Source: a virus
Direction: 5' to 3' (one strand)
Length of the DNA: 21,530 bases
IMG/VR virus record: IMGVR_UViG_3300030406_000030
Location: 1-21,530 of that record
Part shown: positions 1,469-17,012 of the stretch, one piece after another
Numbering within the stretch: the stretch's first letter is position 1
Layout: each line of letters opens with the position of its first letter
The notes under the pieces: generated by a model
The model's input: the letters and a program-made list of their open reading frames with translations, nothing else
What the model was told of the DNA's origin: nothing
The model's database searches: none
Translations under genes and position numbers: made by a program

Positions 1469-4400
1469 CTACCTCACTAAATATTCGTGAACTGTATCAG
1501 ATATTTCTCTCATCTTAATCCATCTATCACCAACAGTTTGCCCAACATTAACTCTAAGTTTACCTACCAAACCTATAGGACTAAACTCTTTTCTATCTTC
1601 TCTAGGAATATAGGTTTTACTTGCATCAAATGCTGAATTAAGTTTTTTTCTTTTTAAGTTATCACCATTCTCATCTTTAGATGTCACTTTTGCATCTTTA
1701 GGTACAGTAACATCACTTGGTATTTTATCTGTATTGTAGGTTTTTAAATTTTTAGCTCCATCACTTGCTTCTTCTGCCCATTCTGTTTGTGTGTATTCTT
1801 CATAAATATATCTTCCATAATTATCTGTTTCAAATTTATCTTTCCATTTTTCACTTTGAGCATCACCAAGAATTACTGGTCTTGCAGATACAACTCCTAT
1901 GATGCTTGATTGTGCATCACTACTTGTTGACAATCTTATTTGATTTCCATCAAGCACAACAGTTTTTCCTACCCTATCTTCATTAGAGGTGTTACCATCT
2001 TTCCATTCAAACATCTCGGCATAGTCACCACCACTTGAACTGTAAGCACCATCAGCATGGACAGTGCCATCACCTTGTAGTCTAATTTCTCTATCAGCAC
2101 CATTACCTGAGTAACACTCTAAGAAGTTATAACTACTACTTGCTGCCCTAACAACAATTACTTGAGTTGCACCACCTGCATAACTTCCATCTGATGTTTG
2201 AAAAACCATTGCAGGATTGCCACCATGATCTGTCTGAAACTCACCAAATTGACCAGTAGCATCTCTATAAGTTCCATTTCTATTACCAGCCTTAAAAAAA
2301 GTAGATGCAATAAATCTTGCACTTTCAGAGTTACCATTTTTAAATTGAGTTACATCACTACCTAAAAAATTAATTTGTGTATTGGTATCATCAGATTTAG
2401 TAAATGTATCTGCAATAACTTTACCATTAAAAGTTGCATCACCACCCTCTGATGTATCAAGGGTAAGCATAGTGGTGTTAGTACCACCAACATTACCTCT
2501 AAACTGAATATCTTTATCTTGTACAACTGCCTTAAATATGACGAGACTGCTATCACTTTGAACTGTTAAAAATTCCGTGCCACCATGTTTAAATCTAGTA
2601 TCGCCACCTCCAGCATCTATGCTAATGTCTCCTGCAACATCAAGTGTAAAATCACCACTAGCATTAGCTATATTACCAGTAACAGTTACACCACTAGAAG
2701 TAGTTTCAAACTTTTTGCTATTATCGTGATAAAGTTCTACTGCACCATCAGCAATCGCATTTATCAAATATTCATTGAGTGCTGAGTTCATTATGCCTAC
2801 AGCAGTACTACCACCAATAAACAAACTTCCAGTACCACTATCAACAATACTTGATAAACTACCAGTGTGTTGAATCTGTAAATCACCACTGTCACCTAGC
2901 TTTATTATATCTGCATCACCCATATTAAGATGTGTTTGTAGTGTAGTTTCTCCTTGTACGTTTAGTGTTCCGTTTATATCCGAATTACCAGTAGTAAGTG
3001 TAGATGTACCATTATCAATATTACCAAACCCACTAGTTATTGATCCTGAGTTCAATGCACCAGTAGACACAATATTTGCAACTTGAAATGTACCAAATGT
3101 TACAATATCAACTACATCACCATTAGATAATGCACTAGCAAAAACAACAGAAGTACCTGACGTTACAGTTACATCTGTACCATTCACCATCTTTACACCA
3201 TTTAGGTATACATCAATAAACCCAGCATCATATGCTAAAGTATTACTATTAGCTTCTGCAAAGCCAGTACCTGATGCACCAGTTAATGTTGTAGGTGTGC
3301 CAGTAATATTGTATGTAAATCTTTCTGATGTACCATTAACAGATGACCCAGCATTTTGAAAACCACTTGATCCAAACACTTTAAGTGTATTAGCCGCAGT
3401 ATCAAAAACTAGATCACCAACATCATTATCAGAACTTGGCACACCTGATTGTACTCTATATCTTTCAGCAAAGCTATTCACACCTGATAAGTTAGATGCA
3501 ACAGTATTTACATTTGATATTGATCCACCAACATTATTAACATTAGTTATTGCACCTGCTACTGTATTTATATTACTAGCATTACTTACTACTGAGTTTA
3601 TATTAGTAGCATTGCTTACAGCAGAATTAATATTACTAGCATTACTAACTGCGGCATTAATATTACTTGCATTAGATACAGCAGAATTAATATTACTTGA
3701 GTTTCCTGCAACAGATGTGACATTACTTGCGATACCTGCAACAGTAGTGACATTAGCTTTTATTCCCTCTACTGCATTTAAATCAGATACAAAATCTGAT
3801 GTAGCTAATAAATCTAAATCAGCAATTATTGCAGTAGTTGCAAGTGCATTTAAATCAGCTATAAAATCTGATGTTACAACTGACATATCTGTGACAAAAT
3901 CACTAGTAACTAAATTAATTTTTGATACAAATGTACTATCTATAAGTGCCATATCAGCGGCAAAATCAGATGTAATTAATGATGCTTTACCTGCTACAGT
4001 AGTAACATTACTAGCTATCCCTGCTACTGTACTAACATTACTTGAAATACCTGCAACTGTACTGACATTAGAATTATTGCTTGCAACTGTTGTAACATTA
4101 CTACTAATTCCTGCTACTGTATTAATATTTGCAGTAATAGCAGATAAAGAATTAACATTAGCTATTGTTGGACCTGCTTCAGCCGCTCCAGTAGTAGCAT
4201 TAAATCCTAATACTGTTCCTTTTCTTGCATCTTTTAGAGGCAATGTCATAGTAGCCGCATCATCAAACTCTTGTAATCTGATGGTTCTATCAACATTATC
4301 ATTAAAATCAGACTGAATAGCAGTAAGGGTGTCAAGTTCAGTATTAAGTTTAGCTATCTCAAAAGCACCTGAACTTGGAAAGTCTGTTGTTCTTGATAAA

Positions 4401-4672
4401 GGTATATCACGAGTGATAACAACAGTACTGCCACCAGTAGCACCAGTGACAGAAGTTGTTACAGTTCCAGTAGAACCATTGCCACCACTCACAGTATACA
4501 ATGAAGTATTACTTGTACTTGCATCAAAGGTACGTTCAGTACCATCAACAAATACATTTAAATCTGTTGATCCAGTAAAAAATACGAATGGTACAGCAAA
4601 TGAGGTTTGAGTTGCTCCCTGACTTACTGTGTAACTCACTCGTGGTGTATTTGCACTTAAAGCTATAGTCAT
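1469..4672 (-). CDS. Large tail fibre: T7 gp17-like N-terminus, repeat shaft, Peptidase_G2-like C-terminus
   Basis: A 1067-aa host-recognition fibre. Residues about 1-150 resemble the T7 gp17 N-terminal anchor that docks on the tail (VSYTVSQGATQTSFAVPFVF, then VFVDG and the RDIPLSRTTDF region). Residues 182-231 and 307-396 are decapeptide repeats of the N-[VI]-x-T-V-A-G-x-x-S type, with 11-12-residue TSDF repeats at 232-299 between them. Residues about 400-870 are beta-rich fibre modules (for example LQIQHTG, ELYHDNSKKFETTSSGVTVTGN). From about residue 878 the sequence matches the Peptidase_G2/intramolecular-chaperone type (GGDYAEMFEW with D883, DGN.IR.ST, IIGVVSARP..LGDA, PIGLVGKLRV). That domain normally helps trimerisation and then cleaves itself off. 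The start overlaps the gp16-like stop as TAATG, with GAGG about 11 nt upstream. Confidence 0.93.
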   Translation of the reverse strand: MTIALSANTPRVSYTVSQGATQTSFAVPFVFFTGSTDLNVFVDGTERTFDASTSNTSLYTVSGGNGSTGTVTTSVTGATGGSTVVITRDIPLSRTTDFPSSGAFEIAKLNTELDTLTAIQSDFNDNVDRTIRLQEFDDAATMTLPLKDARKGTVLGFNATTGAAEAGPTIANVNSLSAITANINTVAGISSNVTTVASNNSNVSTVAGISSNVSTVAGIASNVTTVAGKASLITSDFAADMALIDSTFVSKINLVTSDFVTDMSVVTSDFIADLNALATTAIIADLDLLATSDFVSDLNAVEGIKANVTTVAGIASNVTSVAGNSSNINSAVSNASNINAAVSNASNINSAVSNATNINSVVSNASNINTVAGAITNVNNVGGSISNVNTVASNLSGVNSFAERYRVQSGVPSSDNDVGDLVFDTAANTLKVFGSSGFQNAGSSVNGTSERFTYNITGTPTTLTGASGTGFAEANSNTLAYDAGFIDVYLNGVKMVNGTDVTVTSGTSVVFASALSNGDVVDIVTFGTFQVANIVSTGALNSGSITSGFGNIDNGTSTLTTGNSDINGTLNVQGETTLQTHLNMGDADIIKLGDSGDLQIQHTGSLSSIVDSGTGSLFIGGSTAVGIMNSALNEYLINAIADGAVELYHDNSKKFETTSSGVTVTGNIANASGDFTLDVAGDISIDAGGGDTRFKHGGTEFLTVQSDSSLVIFKAVVQDKDIQFRGNVGGTNTTMLTLDTSEGGDATFNGKVIADTFTKSDDTNTQINFLGSDVTQFKNGNSESARFIASTFFKAGNRNGTYRDATGQFGEFQTDHGGNPAMVFQTSDGSYAGGATQVIVVRAASSSYNFLECYSGNGADREIRLQGDGTVHADGAYSSSGGDYAEMFEWKDGNTSNEDRVGKTVVLDGNQIRLSTSSDAQSSIIGVVSARPVILGDAQSEKWKDKFETDNYGRYIYEEYTQTEWAEEASDGAKNLKTYNTDKIPSDVTVPKDAKVTSKDENGDNLKRKKLNSAFDASKTYIPREDRKEFSPIGLVGKLRVNVGQTVGDRWIKMREISDTVHEYLVR
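3485..3754 (-). repeat. Nine 30-bp in-frame repeats encoding a decapeptide in the fibre shaft
   Basis: Fibre residues 307-396 divide exactly into nine units of ten: NVTTVAGIAS, NVTSVAGNSS, NINSAVSNAS, NINAAVSNAS, NINSAVSNAT, NINSVVSNAS, NINTVAGAIT, NVNNVGGSIS, NVNTVASNLS. A degenerate tenth unit (GVNSFAE) follows. The four central 'NIN' units are nearly identical also at DNA level, which suggests recent unit duplication. The regular hydrophobic positions point to a repetitive trimeric shaft. This is a coding repeat, not a CRISPR: there are no unique spacers. Confidence 0.9.
3980..4129 (-). repeat. Five 30-bp in-frame repeats encoding a decapeptide in the fibre shaft
   Basis: Fibre residues 182-231 hold five units of ten: NINTVAGISS, NVTTVASNNS, NVSTVAGISS, NVSTVAGIAS, NVTTVAGKAS. 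This is the same motif as the second array, but the two are separated by a block with a different period (residues 232-306, positions 3755-3979). In that block the units are 11-12 residues long and of the form LVTSDFVTDMS. Confidence 0.9.
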
Positions 4673-7600
4673 TAAAATCTATTCCTCAGTAATCTATCTA
4701 TATCACTTTCGTCTGTGTCTTGCAACATTCTTCCAAATTCGTTAACATAATCTCGCAAAAACCACAATCTCATAAATGGTAAATTTTTAACAAATTGTGA
4801 TGCACCTTTCATGTCACCCTCTACTGCAAACTTGTATGCACCCTCTGTAAGATCGTATCCAATACTAGGACCTGCACCACCTATAGCAGTAAAAGCATCA
4901 ACATAACTTGGATCTTGTGGAAACTTTGGCTGTAATAAACCCATTGATATATCAGGTCCATCTAGTGCCAATGAGGTTTGCATTGCTGTATAAAAAGCAT
5001 CACTATATATTGCCGCTAATCCTGAAGCATCAAATGCTCTAGCCATCTTATCTTCTATTGACATTTTATCCCAAATGTAACCAGTACCATTAAGTTCATA
5101 CTTAATTGATAAGGACATATATGCTAACCCCATACTAGTTACCATAGATATAGCTCTATTTTTAGCTTGTCCAGTTGCCATAGCCGCTGTAATTTTATTA
5201 GCCGCCGCAAAACTATAACTAAAAAATTGGAATGGTAATCCTGCTAAACCAGTTTCTACTCTTGTATATCCTCTAAATCTAGCATCTTCTTTTAATCCAA
5301 ACTTCTCTCCAATCCATGATGGAATATATGCTACACCATCAGAGATAATTGGTTTATCAGCAGGTGTACCCATAACCACAGTATTAGCAACTCCTGAGTT
5401 CATAGCTACTCTAAATTTATCTATTGTATCTTCTGATACTTTCTTTTGTTTTTTTATTTCTGCTAATGCTAAGTCATTAATTTTATTCTCATATTCTGCC
5501 TTACCACCTTTTTTTCTTAAATCTATTCCTAAACTTTTTGCAGAATTTCTAGTGTGCATAATTTCGTGCATCACTACAAAATTTAACCAATCTTCAGGTT
5601 CTTTAAATTGATTTATAGATAAAGGCTTTACACCCTCTAGCTTTGGATTAGTCCATGCTTGTGACTCAAACATTTCACCTTTAATATAATCTCTATCAAT
5701 AAGTATAGCATTTTCACTTTTTCTAAATAATGCAGGTACATATCTACCTTCTATAGTTTTACCAGTTTTGCCATATATAATCTTAGCTGTTGTATCTGGA
5801 AAAACTATACTTGTATTCCATTTATCAGTATTAGCTAAATACATACCATTTTCTGATACTTCCCACCCTGCACTAGCTATTTCTCGACTTTGCTCTTTGC
5901 CTATACCATATCTTCTAAGATATTGAATATCTTTAGCAGTAGCAGTGCCATTATGTTCTTTTACACTAAACTCAATTAATTCATGCTGTCTTATAATACC
6001 ATCAAGTTTTTTAATAACGTTTGTTATTGGTGCTAATCCATTAAGTATATAGAATAAACTTCTTGCTTTAGTTCTAAATCCAGTTTCAAGAGGGTTATTA
6101 GTTAAATCCTCTACAAACTTCATGTGTGCATCACCTTGTAATATCTCTAATGCTTCAGCCGCAATTCTAAGTTCTTTTCTTGTCATTCGTACTTTTGAGT
6201 CTGATAGTATTCCATACAAACCTTTGAATACATTTTTAAGTTCATGCTCCATCAATACTTTGGCGGCATCAGGAATACTTGATATACCTGCTGATCCTAA
6301 ATAATTAAGTTGTGCTAAATCTCGTAACATATTAGCAAATCTCATATCTAATCTTGCAGGATTAGTTAAAACTCTACCAACAACACGATCATAAGAATGT
6401 AAAAAGTTTTTTCTAACTTTATTGATTTCACGCATTGAGATACCTGCGTTCATCATATCATTGTCCATATCATCAAGAACTTCATCAATAGTTCTACCAC
6501 CATACATTTTATTAAATTCATATTTTGGTGCTACTCTTTGAGTGTATATTCTCATAACTTGTACTGGATTTACTTCTATAAAATCAGTAACTAAAGCATT
6601 AGGAATATCTAATTCTCTATGTCTAAAATGTTGTGATTTGCCATAACCATAAAATGCAAAAGAATCATCTGTAAGATCAGCACCTTCTTTTGTTATAGCT
6701 TTTATAGTGCTGTCTACTCTCTTAGCAATAGCATCAGCAGTTGTTGCCCTGCTTATTTCTTCAGGTGTTTCGGCAGATCTCCTTAACTTTGTGCCATCTG
6801 CTTTAGTCACCATAACTGTAGGGTTATCTGTAAACCACTTTGTTAATACTTGAGCAAACTTCTCTCTATTATTTTTTATTTTATCTACTGACCAATATCT
6901 TGGAAAGAAAAACTCCTCATTTGCAGGTAGTACTTTCTTTTGTCTAGCATTTTTTAGATTTATATTTAAATCTTGTATTTCAAAATTATTTCTAGCTAAC
7001 CTTTTAATTATATTATTTTTTTTCTTTTGCAAACCTGAAGGTAAAAAAGTACCTTGCTGTTTTTTCATTTTTAATGACTCAAGAAACTCTAACTGTTTTT
7101 CACTTAAACCAACTTTTTCAGCTTGACCCATAAATTGTGCATCTAGTTCATCTAATATTTGTTGGTATTTCACAGTCATTTCTGCGTCTAATACTGCAAG
7201 ATCTCTAAGCTCTCTTACATCTTTAAATACTCTTAGTTGTTTTTTTTCTATATCTTTAGCAATAGATGCTGTGTCACCTATAATACCTGCATCTCTTAGT
7301 CTTGTTTCCCATCTTTCAAAGAATGAGTCTATTTGAGATTTAACTCTTTTTTCGATATCAGTTAATTTTTCACCTTTTAATATTTTTGTATAAGTACCTT
7401 CTAACCAATCATGGTAAGTTGTTCTTTTTCTTAACCTTGATACAGCATCATCAATATCTATATCCATAGCATAAAGATTTTTACCAAACTGTTCTTTATA
7501 AATTGTTCTTAGAACATCATGTGTAGCTACCCATTCACCTTCTCTTATTTTAGATAACTGATATACAGAGTTTTCTGTAGCTAATCCAAATTTTGTTTTT

Positions 7601-8931
7601 GTTAAATTCATGGCACTATCACCAATTAATTTAACAAAATCTAATTTAGTTATTGTTGGTATTGCACTTGATAATGCACTTTTAAGTGGTGTTGGAATTG
7701 CTTTATAAAACCAACTTTCTGTAAACCAATTTTTTTCTAATGATAGTGGATCTTCTATTTCTGTATTTAACTGTGCATCTTCTTCTACTCTTCTAAAAGA
7801 AAGTTCTGCATCAAGTTGTGATAATATTCTTTGATTATCTGCTAAATCTTTTACAGTCTTATTATAAGCATTTCCATTTTCTATATCTTTTTCTAATTTT
7901 TTAATCCGATTTATAAATTCTGTTTTAACATAATCTGACTGTTCTTTTGAAAAAGATGCTTTTGTTGCTTCAAAATCTTGTAAATCTTTTTTTGCATCTT
8001 TTAATCTTGACTGTAAATTTGGCAAGTTATCTGCCAATATATCAAAACCTTTTCTTTCTTGATCTGCTTTCCTTTTTTCATTACCAAATCTTTCATTTGG
8101 CAATGCTTTCTTTAATCCTTGTAAATATTCTGTAGTATATATTGGCTCTGACTTACCATCTTTACCAACCTTTACTTCTTTATCTATAGCAAAAGGTCTA
8201 TCTAATTTACTATCTATTGCTTTTTGTAATAACGTAGTATCTGTAGATTGTTCATCAATAGTTTTAATTAATTGTAAACTATCTTCTTCTAATTTCTTTA
8301 ATGCACCAACTTGCCTACTTACTACTGCTCCAGTAGCACCACCAATAATTGCACCACCTAATACAGAAAAAGCTATATTACCTGCAACCTCTTGACCAGT
8401 AGCTAAAGGATCAAAAGGATATCTTAATGCTTCTTGACCTGCTGTTAATATACCTACACCTCTACCAGTGCGAAAAGCGGCAGTAGCCGCACTAACTGTA
8501 AAACCACCAAAAGGTATAGCAAAAAGATTTATTGGATCAAATATACCTGATATAAGTTGTTGTGGTATAGAGCTTTGAGCAAGTATTTGTCTACGTTCTT
8601 TGTTTTCATCAATCTGCTGTTTTAGATCTCTCATATGCTCTGCATTTTTTGCATCAATAAGATCATCAACAAACTCTTCATAACCAATCATATCTCGTAA
8701 TGGCTCATATTCATTATCTACTTCATCTCTATATCTTACTGCATTTTCAACAGCATTAATCAATGGCATATAAGAATAGCCAAGTTGTGCTGATATAGTA
8801 TCACCAAAACTAGGAGAGTCAGTTGAATTAAGTGTAAATTGTGGCACTGATCCACGAGTTTGTAATCTAAATAATTGATCTTCACTTAATATTTCAGGTG
8901 CAAATCTACCACTAGAGAATACATCAACCAT
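4672..8931 (-). CDS. Internal virion (ejection) protein, T7 gp16-like, with zincin motif
   Basis: This 1419-aa protein sits directly before the fibre gene, as T7 gp16 (1318 aa) does. It would be part of the internal core that is ejected to form the DNA channel through the cell envelope. Residues about 125-153 and 181-209 are hydrophobic and Gly/Ala-rich (FDPINLFAIPFGGFTVSAA; FSVLGGAIIGGATGAVV). A Lys/Glu-rich coiled-coil region follows (about 210-400), then a long helical body. I see no N-terminal lytic transglycosylase like that of T7 gp16. Instead HEIMH lies at 1122-1126 (H1122, E1123, H1126), with a plausible third ligand E1148 in YENKINDLA, the pattern of a gluzincin-type metallopeptidase. 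The start overlaps the previous stop as TAATG. The gp16-like role rests on size, order and hydrophobic segments. Confidence 0.85.
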   Translation of the reverse strand: MVDVFSSGRFAPEILSEDQLFRLQTRGSVPQFTLNSTDSPSFGDTISAQLGYSYMPLINAVENAVRYRDEVDNEYEPLRDMIGYEEFVDDLIDAKNAEHMRDLKQQIDENKERRQILAQSSIPQQLISGIFDPINLFAIPFGGFTVSAATAAFRTGRGVGILTAGQEALRYPFDPLATGQEVAGNIAFSVLGGAIIGGATGAVVSRQVGALKKLEEDSLQLIKTIDEQSTDTTLLQKAIDSKLDRPFAIDKEVKVGKDGKSEPIYTTEYLQGLKKALPNERFGNEKRKADQERKGFDILADNLPNLQSRLKDAKKDLQDFEATKASFSKEQSDYVKTEFINRIKKLEKDIENGNAYNKTVKDLADNQRILSQLDAELSFRRVEEDAQLNTEIEDPLSLEKNWFTESWFYKAIPTPLKSALSSAIPTITKLDFVKLIGDSAMNLTKTKFGLATENSVYQLSKIREGEWVATHDVLRTIYKEQFGKNLYAMDIDIDDAVSRLRKRTTYHDWLEGTYTKILKGEKLTDIEKRVKSQIDSFFERWETRLRDAGIIGDTASIAKDIEKKQLRVFKDVRELRDLAVLDAEMTVKYQQILDELDAQFMGQAEKVGLSEKQLEFLESLKMKKQQGTFLPSGLQKKKNNIIKRLARNNFEIQDLNINLKNARQKKVLPANEEFFFPRYWSVDKIKNNREKFAQVLTKWFTDNPTVMVTKADGTKLRRSAETPEEISRATTADAIAKRVDSTIKAITKEGADLTDDSFAFYGYGKSQHFRHRELDIPNALVTDFIEVNPVQVMRIYTQRVAPKYEFNKMYGGRTIDEVLDDMDNDMMNAGISMREINKVRKNFLHSYDRVVGRVLTNPARLDMRFANMLRDLAQLNYLGSAGISSIPDAAKVLMEHELKNVFKGLYGILSDSKVRMTRKELRIAAEALEILQGDAHMKFVEDLTNNPLETGFRTKARSLFYILNGLAPITNVIKKLDGIIRQHELIEFSVKEHNGTATAKDIQYLRRYGIGKEQSREIASAGWEVSENGMYLANTDKWNTSIVFPDTTAKIIYGKTGKTIEGRYVPALFRKSENAILIDRDYIKGEMFESQAWTNPKLEGVKPLSINQFKEPEDWLNFVVMHEIMHTRNSAKSLGIDLRKKGGKAEYENKINDLALAEIKKQKKVSEDTIDKFRVAMNSGVANTVVMGTPADKPIISDGVAYIPSWIGEKFGLKEDARFRGYTRVETGLAGLPFQFFSYSFAAANKITAAMATGQAKNRAISMVTSMGLAYMSLSIKYELNGTGYIWDKMSIEDKMARAFDASGLAAIYSDAFYTAMQTSLALDGPDISMGLLQPKFPQDPSYVDAFTAIGGAGPSIGYDLTEGAYKFAVEGDMKGASQFVKNLPFMRLWFLRDYVNEFGRMLQDTDESDIDRLLRNRF

Positions 8932-16478: not shown

Positions 16479-17012
16479 TCAGCTACAAACTGGGCTATAT
16501 TCTTTATTTACCAAAATTTTTTCGCCTTTGCAACGTACAAATCGCAAAACAGCAAAACCATTAATCATTATAGGTTGTTCTATAACTTCAAAACCTATGT
16601 AATCTAACCATTGTAATGTCTTTGCATGGTCAGCAGGTACAACATTTTCTAGCTGATAATACTTATTTTGAAAGTAATTAACTACTGGCACACACCATTT
16701 AAGAAACTTTTTTTGTATTTTGTATATATCATATGTGCCTAATGCCCATATTTTGCCAATCATATTATCCAAAATAGGATTACAGCCAAAGATAAATGCA
16801 GGTTGCCCATCAACCATAACAGTAAAACTTTCACTATTAGGCTCACGGATACCTGCCATCAAAGCACGAAAAGGTGTTGCACCATGTATCATGCACTCTC
16901 TAACATCTGCATCTCTCATATTATTTTGCAGATAACTTAAATGTTTAATATGTGATTTGACTATAGGGTATCCATCATAGATACCCTCGCCATTAAATTC
17001 TCTTAAAGCCAT
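16479..17012 (-). CDS. T7 gp13/DUF2833-like protein with GNAT-like fold
   Basis: A 177-aa protein. The pattern RALMAGIREPNSESFTVMVDGQPAFIFGC, then IGKIWALGTYDIYKIQKKFLKW, and near the C-terminus KTLQWLDYIGFEVIEQPIMINGFAVLRFVRC resembles the DUF2833/Phage T7 gp13 family. Those proteins have an acetyltransferase-like fold: beta-bulge, helix, and the final 'LGF' type segment, here DYIGFEV. I cannot see a clear acetyl-CoA P-loop (R/Q-x-x-G-x-G/A), so activity is doubtful. T7 gp13 acts in virion maturation and lies between genes 12 and 14, whereas this gene lies between scaffold and capsid. Its start overlaps the end of the scaffold gene by 20 bp. The SD is weak (AAGAAA), so coupling is likely. 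Confidence 0.75.
   Translation of the reverse strand: MALREFNGEGIYDGYPIVKSHIKHLSYLQNNMRDADVRECMIHGATPFRALMAGIREPNSESFTVMVDGQPAFIFGCNPILDNMIGKIWALGTYDIYKIQKKFLKWCVPVVNYFQNKYYQLENVVPADHAKTLQWLDYIGFEVIEQPIMINGFAVLRFVRCKGEKILVNKEYSPVCS

Follow-up and report, generated by a model that had tools for sequence, protein, structure and literature searches.

Why should a marine phage protein that resembles the ejection protein gp16 of T7 carry the HExxH motif of a zincin-like metallopeptidase? The question is raised by a 1419-amino acid (aa) protein encoded in the DNA analyzed here (the window), which spans a whole IMG/VR virus record of 21,530 bases. A first description made from the letters of this DNA (the sequence-only reading) had called the protein gp16-like, had seen no N-terminal transglycosylase of the kind found in T7, and had suggested that a zincin-like segment within it pierces the envelope or processes the protein itself. 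Its account of the carrier proved sound. The protein matches phrog_342, the T7 gp16 family (E 1.1e-40), and phrog_16310 (E 2.7e-22), and its gene is the third in a gp14-gp15-gp16 run (Table 1), the gp15-like member of which, without a match in Pfam or PHROG, was recognized from its position alone. Residues 92-218 pair with residues 294-419 of T7 gp16 (hhalign E 6e-5, probability 65%, with low sequence similarity), the match to the gp16-family PHROG covers the profile (1235 positions) only from position 219 onward, and Pfam identified no transglycosylase at the N terminus. N-terminal transglycosylases are a feature of T7-type ejection proteins only and are absent from those of P22 and Sf6.

Table 1. 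Positions, in the window, of the zincin domain, its predicted active-site residues, the carrier gene and the neighboring ejection-protein genes.
Feature	Window positions	Strand	Basis
T7 gp16-like ejection protein of 1419 aa, lacking an N-terminal transglycosylase	4672..8931	(-)	phrog_342, phrog_16310, alignment with T7 gp16
Hydrophobic TMH-I-like region, residues 125-204	8320..8559	(-)	hydropathy; aligns to T7 gp16 TMH I
Inserted zincin domain (predicted), subtype I, site A, residues ~1042-1166	5434..5808	(-)	absent in sister proteins; predicted fold; zincin matches
HEIMH motif (residues 1122-1126), with H1122 and H1126 as predicted zinc ligands and E1123 as predicted base	5554..5568	(-)	invariance
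E1148 on the next helix, predicted to be the third zinc ligand	5488..5490	(-)	invariance
gp15-like ejection protein, 1001 aa	8931..11936	(-)	gene order and position only
gp14-like internal virion protein, 157 aa	11936..12409	(-)	phrog_418, E 1.1e-4

Two other genes in the window are mentioned for completeness. The C terminus of a tail-fibre-like protein (ORF 1469-4672) is formed by a self-cleaving chaperone domain, Peptidase_G2 (PF11962, E 1.6e-30; 1532-2089, minus strand), and a 177-aa protein encoded upstream of a capsid-like gene (16479-17012, minus strand) has, by eye only, a GNAT-type likeness, its Pfam result being a weak DUF7683 score (E 0.03).

The motif itself, HEIMH at residues 1122-1126 with E1148 22 residues further on, lies exactly where it had been reported. 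AlphaFold2, supplied with 26 diverse copies of the segment, predicted a zincin domain (pLDDT 88.9, pTM 0.84) of three main strands and three helices, two of which carry HExxH and the conserved glutamate, respectively, with E1148 on helix 109-136 of the model; a preceding run with five close homologues had reached a pLDDT of only 55.7, and its zincin-leaning matches are taken as no more than a hint. The β-sheet and active helix fall where the sequence-only reading had put them, whereas the limits it gave (5450-5870) are slightly shifted from those found here. The best matches to the model in the PDB, as ranked by VIA-align, are almost all zincins: IrrE/PprI leads (Z 6.9, rmsd 2.9-3.1 over 87-89 residues), followed by a YbeY-type protein (Z 6.2), ArdC (Z 5.4, rmsd 3.2 over 83 residues), Wss1 (Z 5.2) and mini-gluzincins (Z up to 5.0), with other zincins, including lethal factor, further down. 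Because Z values of 5-7 taken alone might reflect only a common arrangement, the case for a zincin is built on the identity of these matches together with the conserved site. Foldseek searches with the model gave weak matches in the PDB and, in BFVD, large phage proteins at E values down to 4e-7; a search of PDB sequences with a profile of the segment detected no relative. Among peptidase families, MPTase-PolyVal of Pfam (PF18818) matches the same residues at 12.6 bits in the full protein and 17.0 bits in the segment, below its gathering cut-off of 27.5, and the best E value among close copies is 0.0021; no match to the ImmA/IrrE family was found among the 26 copies at E values up to 1. These data support the prediction that residues ~1042-1166 form a compact zincin domain in which H1122, H1126 and E1148 would bind zinc.

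This domain, 125 residues in length, is a discrete insertion, a possibility that the sequence-only reading had raised. In IMG/VR relatives that are 66-79% identical (best segment), exactly residues ~1042-1166 are missing, while relatives about 80% identical contain them. Two scans with the C-terminal core of the protein yielded 142 long gp16-like proteins (including L038, L039 and that of Pelagibacter phage Hodr), and in these the interval between residues 1040 and 1168 (site A) measures either 2-9 residues (71 of 142) or at least 123 (71 of 142), with nothing in between. Every one of the 71 filled slots contains HExxH. A filled and an empty slot can occur in proteins as similar as L155 and L153, respectively, which are 88% identical. 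The annotated phages Hodr, Vibrio K411 and CKB-S2, TL-2011b and Mwe-JY08, as well as more distant relatives, have no insert at site A, and no copy of the domain was detected in about one third of the non-redundant relatives.

Conservation within the insert is concentrated on the predicted active site. In 47 non-redundant site-A inserts that were picked by length, with the motif ignored, invariance within the insert is confined to H1122, E1123, H1126, E1148 and F1118 (W1038 and T1169, which are also invariant, lie outside it). We base the claim of invariance on this set because the HExxH columns of our alignment of 26 copies from four positions (alignment A5) are invariant partly through selection; E1148 is invariant in that alignment as well. 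Of eight pairs compared, seven give dN/dS ratios of 0.03-0.15 for the insert; the remaining pair is saturated. One alternative, that HExxH arose by chance where no domain exists, could draw on the weak Pfam score of the full protein. It is contradicted by the conservation, the predicted fold and the modular behavior of the segment: composition (12 His, 99 Glu) predicts 0.007 such motifs in a protein of 1419 aa, and all 97 HExxH motifs across the 142 relatives fall within the zincin domain, at most one per protein, and are therefore not accidental. We give a chance motif next to no credence.

The zincin domain is a mobile cassette. A search profile built from site-A inserts only, for which reversed controls gave nothing better than E 1.4, located the same domain in other lineages at three further positions, with E values from 1e-4 to 1e-36: site B follows residue ~582, site C follows residue ~709, and site D lies in the linker at ~210-440. 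No protein has two copies. Two subtypes can be distinguished, subtype I at sites A and D and subtype II at sites A, B and C, and at site A one has replaced the other between nearly identical phages. The backbones of L165 (subtype II) and L169 (subtype I) are 97.5% identical in protein and 93-94% identical in DNA on both sides of the slot, yet the inserts have no nucleotide match to each other; L114 and L117 display the same swap, and the backbones of the swapped pairs are 96.9-97.5% identical. Seven inserts themselves hold a further insert of up to ~240 aa between the HExxH helix and the glutamate helix. On a tree of 83 backbones, site or type must have changed at least 14 times, and a more careful tree of 47 requires 9 such changes, counts that do not separate gain from loss. 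Since relatives gain the domain, lose it, swap it or carry it elsewhere, it has the look of exchangeable cargo.

Free variation of the HExxH residues, which would speak against a working site, was not seen, with one exception at a different position. The protein of the isolated pelagiphage Hodr (L027:3612-7355, WDQ27578.1) includes, at residues ~257-371 in the site-D region, a degenerate copy of subtype I in which KKEVYRG replaces the HExxH stretch, so that both histidines are lost and the equivalent of E1148 is kept. That this copy is recognizable despite the lost histidines would suit a domain that is purely structural, or that binds metal and has no peptidase activity. In the 47 length-selected inserts, however, the predicted base E1123 varies no more than the ligands do, and a structural zinc would not need a base; we regard a merely structural domain as improbable and the module as very probably an active zincin of some kind.

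Among 50,697 GenBank phages, Hodr is the only record in which any version of the domain was detected. A tblastn search of phages and plasmids with the segment returned chance matches only, one of them in a Vibrio phage and without HExxH, and no stand-alone zincin was found with the type-I profile elsewhere in the relatives' loci. In bacterial genomes a relative was found on just one contig, assigned to an archaeal MAG, and as this relative has no module it provides no link to a host. Other domains are also found in these proteins. One zincin-less relative begins with a phage lysozyme domain (L092:3921-4412, PF00959, 27.5 bits, above the cut-off), a further enzyme fused to an ejection protein. 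Extra inserts in L074 (7179-7940) and L025 (~241-385 of a 1562-aa protein) resemble ADP-ribosyltransferases by eye (HFTRKQNVESLL...MYFTQD; YHGT...VSFS), with no match in Pfam.

Where would such an enzyme act? In the structural model of T7, gp16 residues 1-228 lie in the periplasm, where the transglycosylase (residues 1-156) acts, residues 243-410 and 1119-1290 are putatively in the membrane, and residues 411-1118 form a cytoplasmic ring (PMC8954989). Sites A to D all come after the TMH-I-like region and within the stretch that matches T7 gp16-C (site A near position 1000-1040 of the 1235-position gp16-family profile), which places the enzyme with the cytoplasmic part and not with the T7 wall hydrolase. 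By homology with T7, at low sequence similarity, the domain would be located in the cytoplasm after ejection. The proposal of the sequence-only reading that the module pierces the envelope, opening the cell wall in place of the missing T7 transglycosylase, finds some encouragement in the lack of any recognizable wall hydrolase in the 1419-aa protein and of a T7-type transglycosylase or lysozyme in 28 aligned homologues of the gp15-like protein. Given the position of the module after the TMH-I-like region, rather than in a periplasmic N terminus, the proposal is nevertheless very unlikely. Many relatives, moreover, have neither a zincin nor a wall hydrolase, and to our knowledge the zincin families matched by the model are not wall enzymes.

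Zincins in injected phage proteins are already known, from polyvalent proteins and from the virion RNA polymerase (vRNAP) of phage N4. The MPTase-PolyVal domains (PF18818) of polyvalent proteins, among them ArdC and P1 DdrB, are described by Iyer et al. 2017 (PMC5512222) as having, like the module studied here, HExxH and a glutamate on the next helix, variable inserts between these two helices, and a large carrier thought to be delivered with DNA; to these similarities can be added the sub-threshold Pfam match. Our module differs in its mobility, with four positions occupied and swapping at one, and in its carrier, a T7 gp16-like ejection protein, a type not mentioned in the passages found in PMC5512222. 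IrrE/PprI is the closest structural match, although a Z score of 6.9 may reflect a common arrangement, and the domain is unlike ImmA/IrrE proteins in lacking the Pfam family match and in not being a stand-alone regulator. Domain C1 of the N4 vRNAP (PMC12633501) is likewise an HExxH domain within an ejected giant virion protein, but in a different carrier; as a candidate relative it was rejected, since hhalign aligned only nine motif residues, at a probability of 1.3%. T7 gp16 shares a homologous backbone to which an enzyme domain has been added, but the enzyme is another one and is located elsewhere, at the periplasmic N terminus. In the literature covered, mostly outside subscription journals, we found no report of a zincin in gp16-like ejection proteins, of such a domain at four positions, or of its replacement between near-identical phages. 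The zincin family, its gp16-like setting and its swapping thus appear to be new.

Polyvalent proteins also suggest the chief rival explanation, namely that the substrate of the zincin is the carrier itself or the gp14-like or gp15-like partners, cut within the capsid or in the course of ejection so as to mature or remodel the DNA tunnel or to free a domain. The zincin is fused to its would-be substrate, and in PMC5512222 self-processing is proposed for MPTase domains of polyvalent proteins, with P1 DdrB processed before packaging; according to the same paper, the N4 vRNAP has such a domain but is packaged unprocessed. The module is missing in many close relatives, and cleavage next to four different positions would yield different fragments. 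An enzyme that matures the tunnel should be fixed, which a mobile and optional module is not. Because the module hops and is swapped, we do not favor self-processing and consider it rather unlikely.

The reading that we prefer, with about an even chance of being correct, is that the module is an exchangeable cargo zincin in a gp16-like carrier, delivered to the cytoplasm and most likely cutting one or more host proteins. The carrier would presumably be packaged in the head and leave it with the DNA, and the module would reach the host cytoplasm with the gp16-C-like part. There, with zinc held by H1122, H1126 and E1148 and with E1123 as the base, it could cut one or a few defense or regulatory proteins early in infection. 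An accessory weapon of this kind is suggested because the module is optional, exchangeable at its slot, independent of position and prone to acquire more inserts. More broadly, and with somewhat less confidence, we propose that in marine phages the cytoplasm-entering part of the gp16-like protein may be a cargo slot for an injected peptidase that hops, is exchanged for a distant subtype between near-identical phages and receives further inserts. If this is true, the pattern at the slot is what would be expected from an arms race with host defenses. The near-identical natural pairs, with and without the module or with subtype I and subtype II, are ready controls.

Ejection proteins are usually viewed as DNA tunnels accompanied by a wall hydrolase. 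That a module with a strictly conserved zincin site comes and goes, moves and is exchanged inside an ejection protein that is otherwise conserved suggests a further role for these proteins, the delivery of enzymes into the cytoplasm of the host. Why internal virion proteins are among the contents of hypervariable islands in marine phage genomes was called obscure in PMC3909814, and a swappable module of this type may help explain it.
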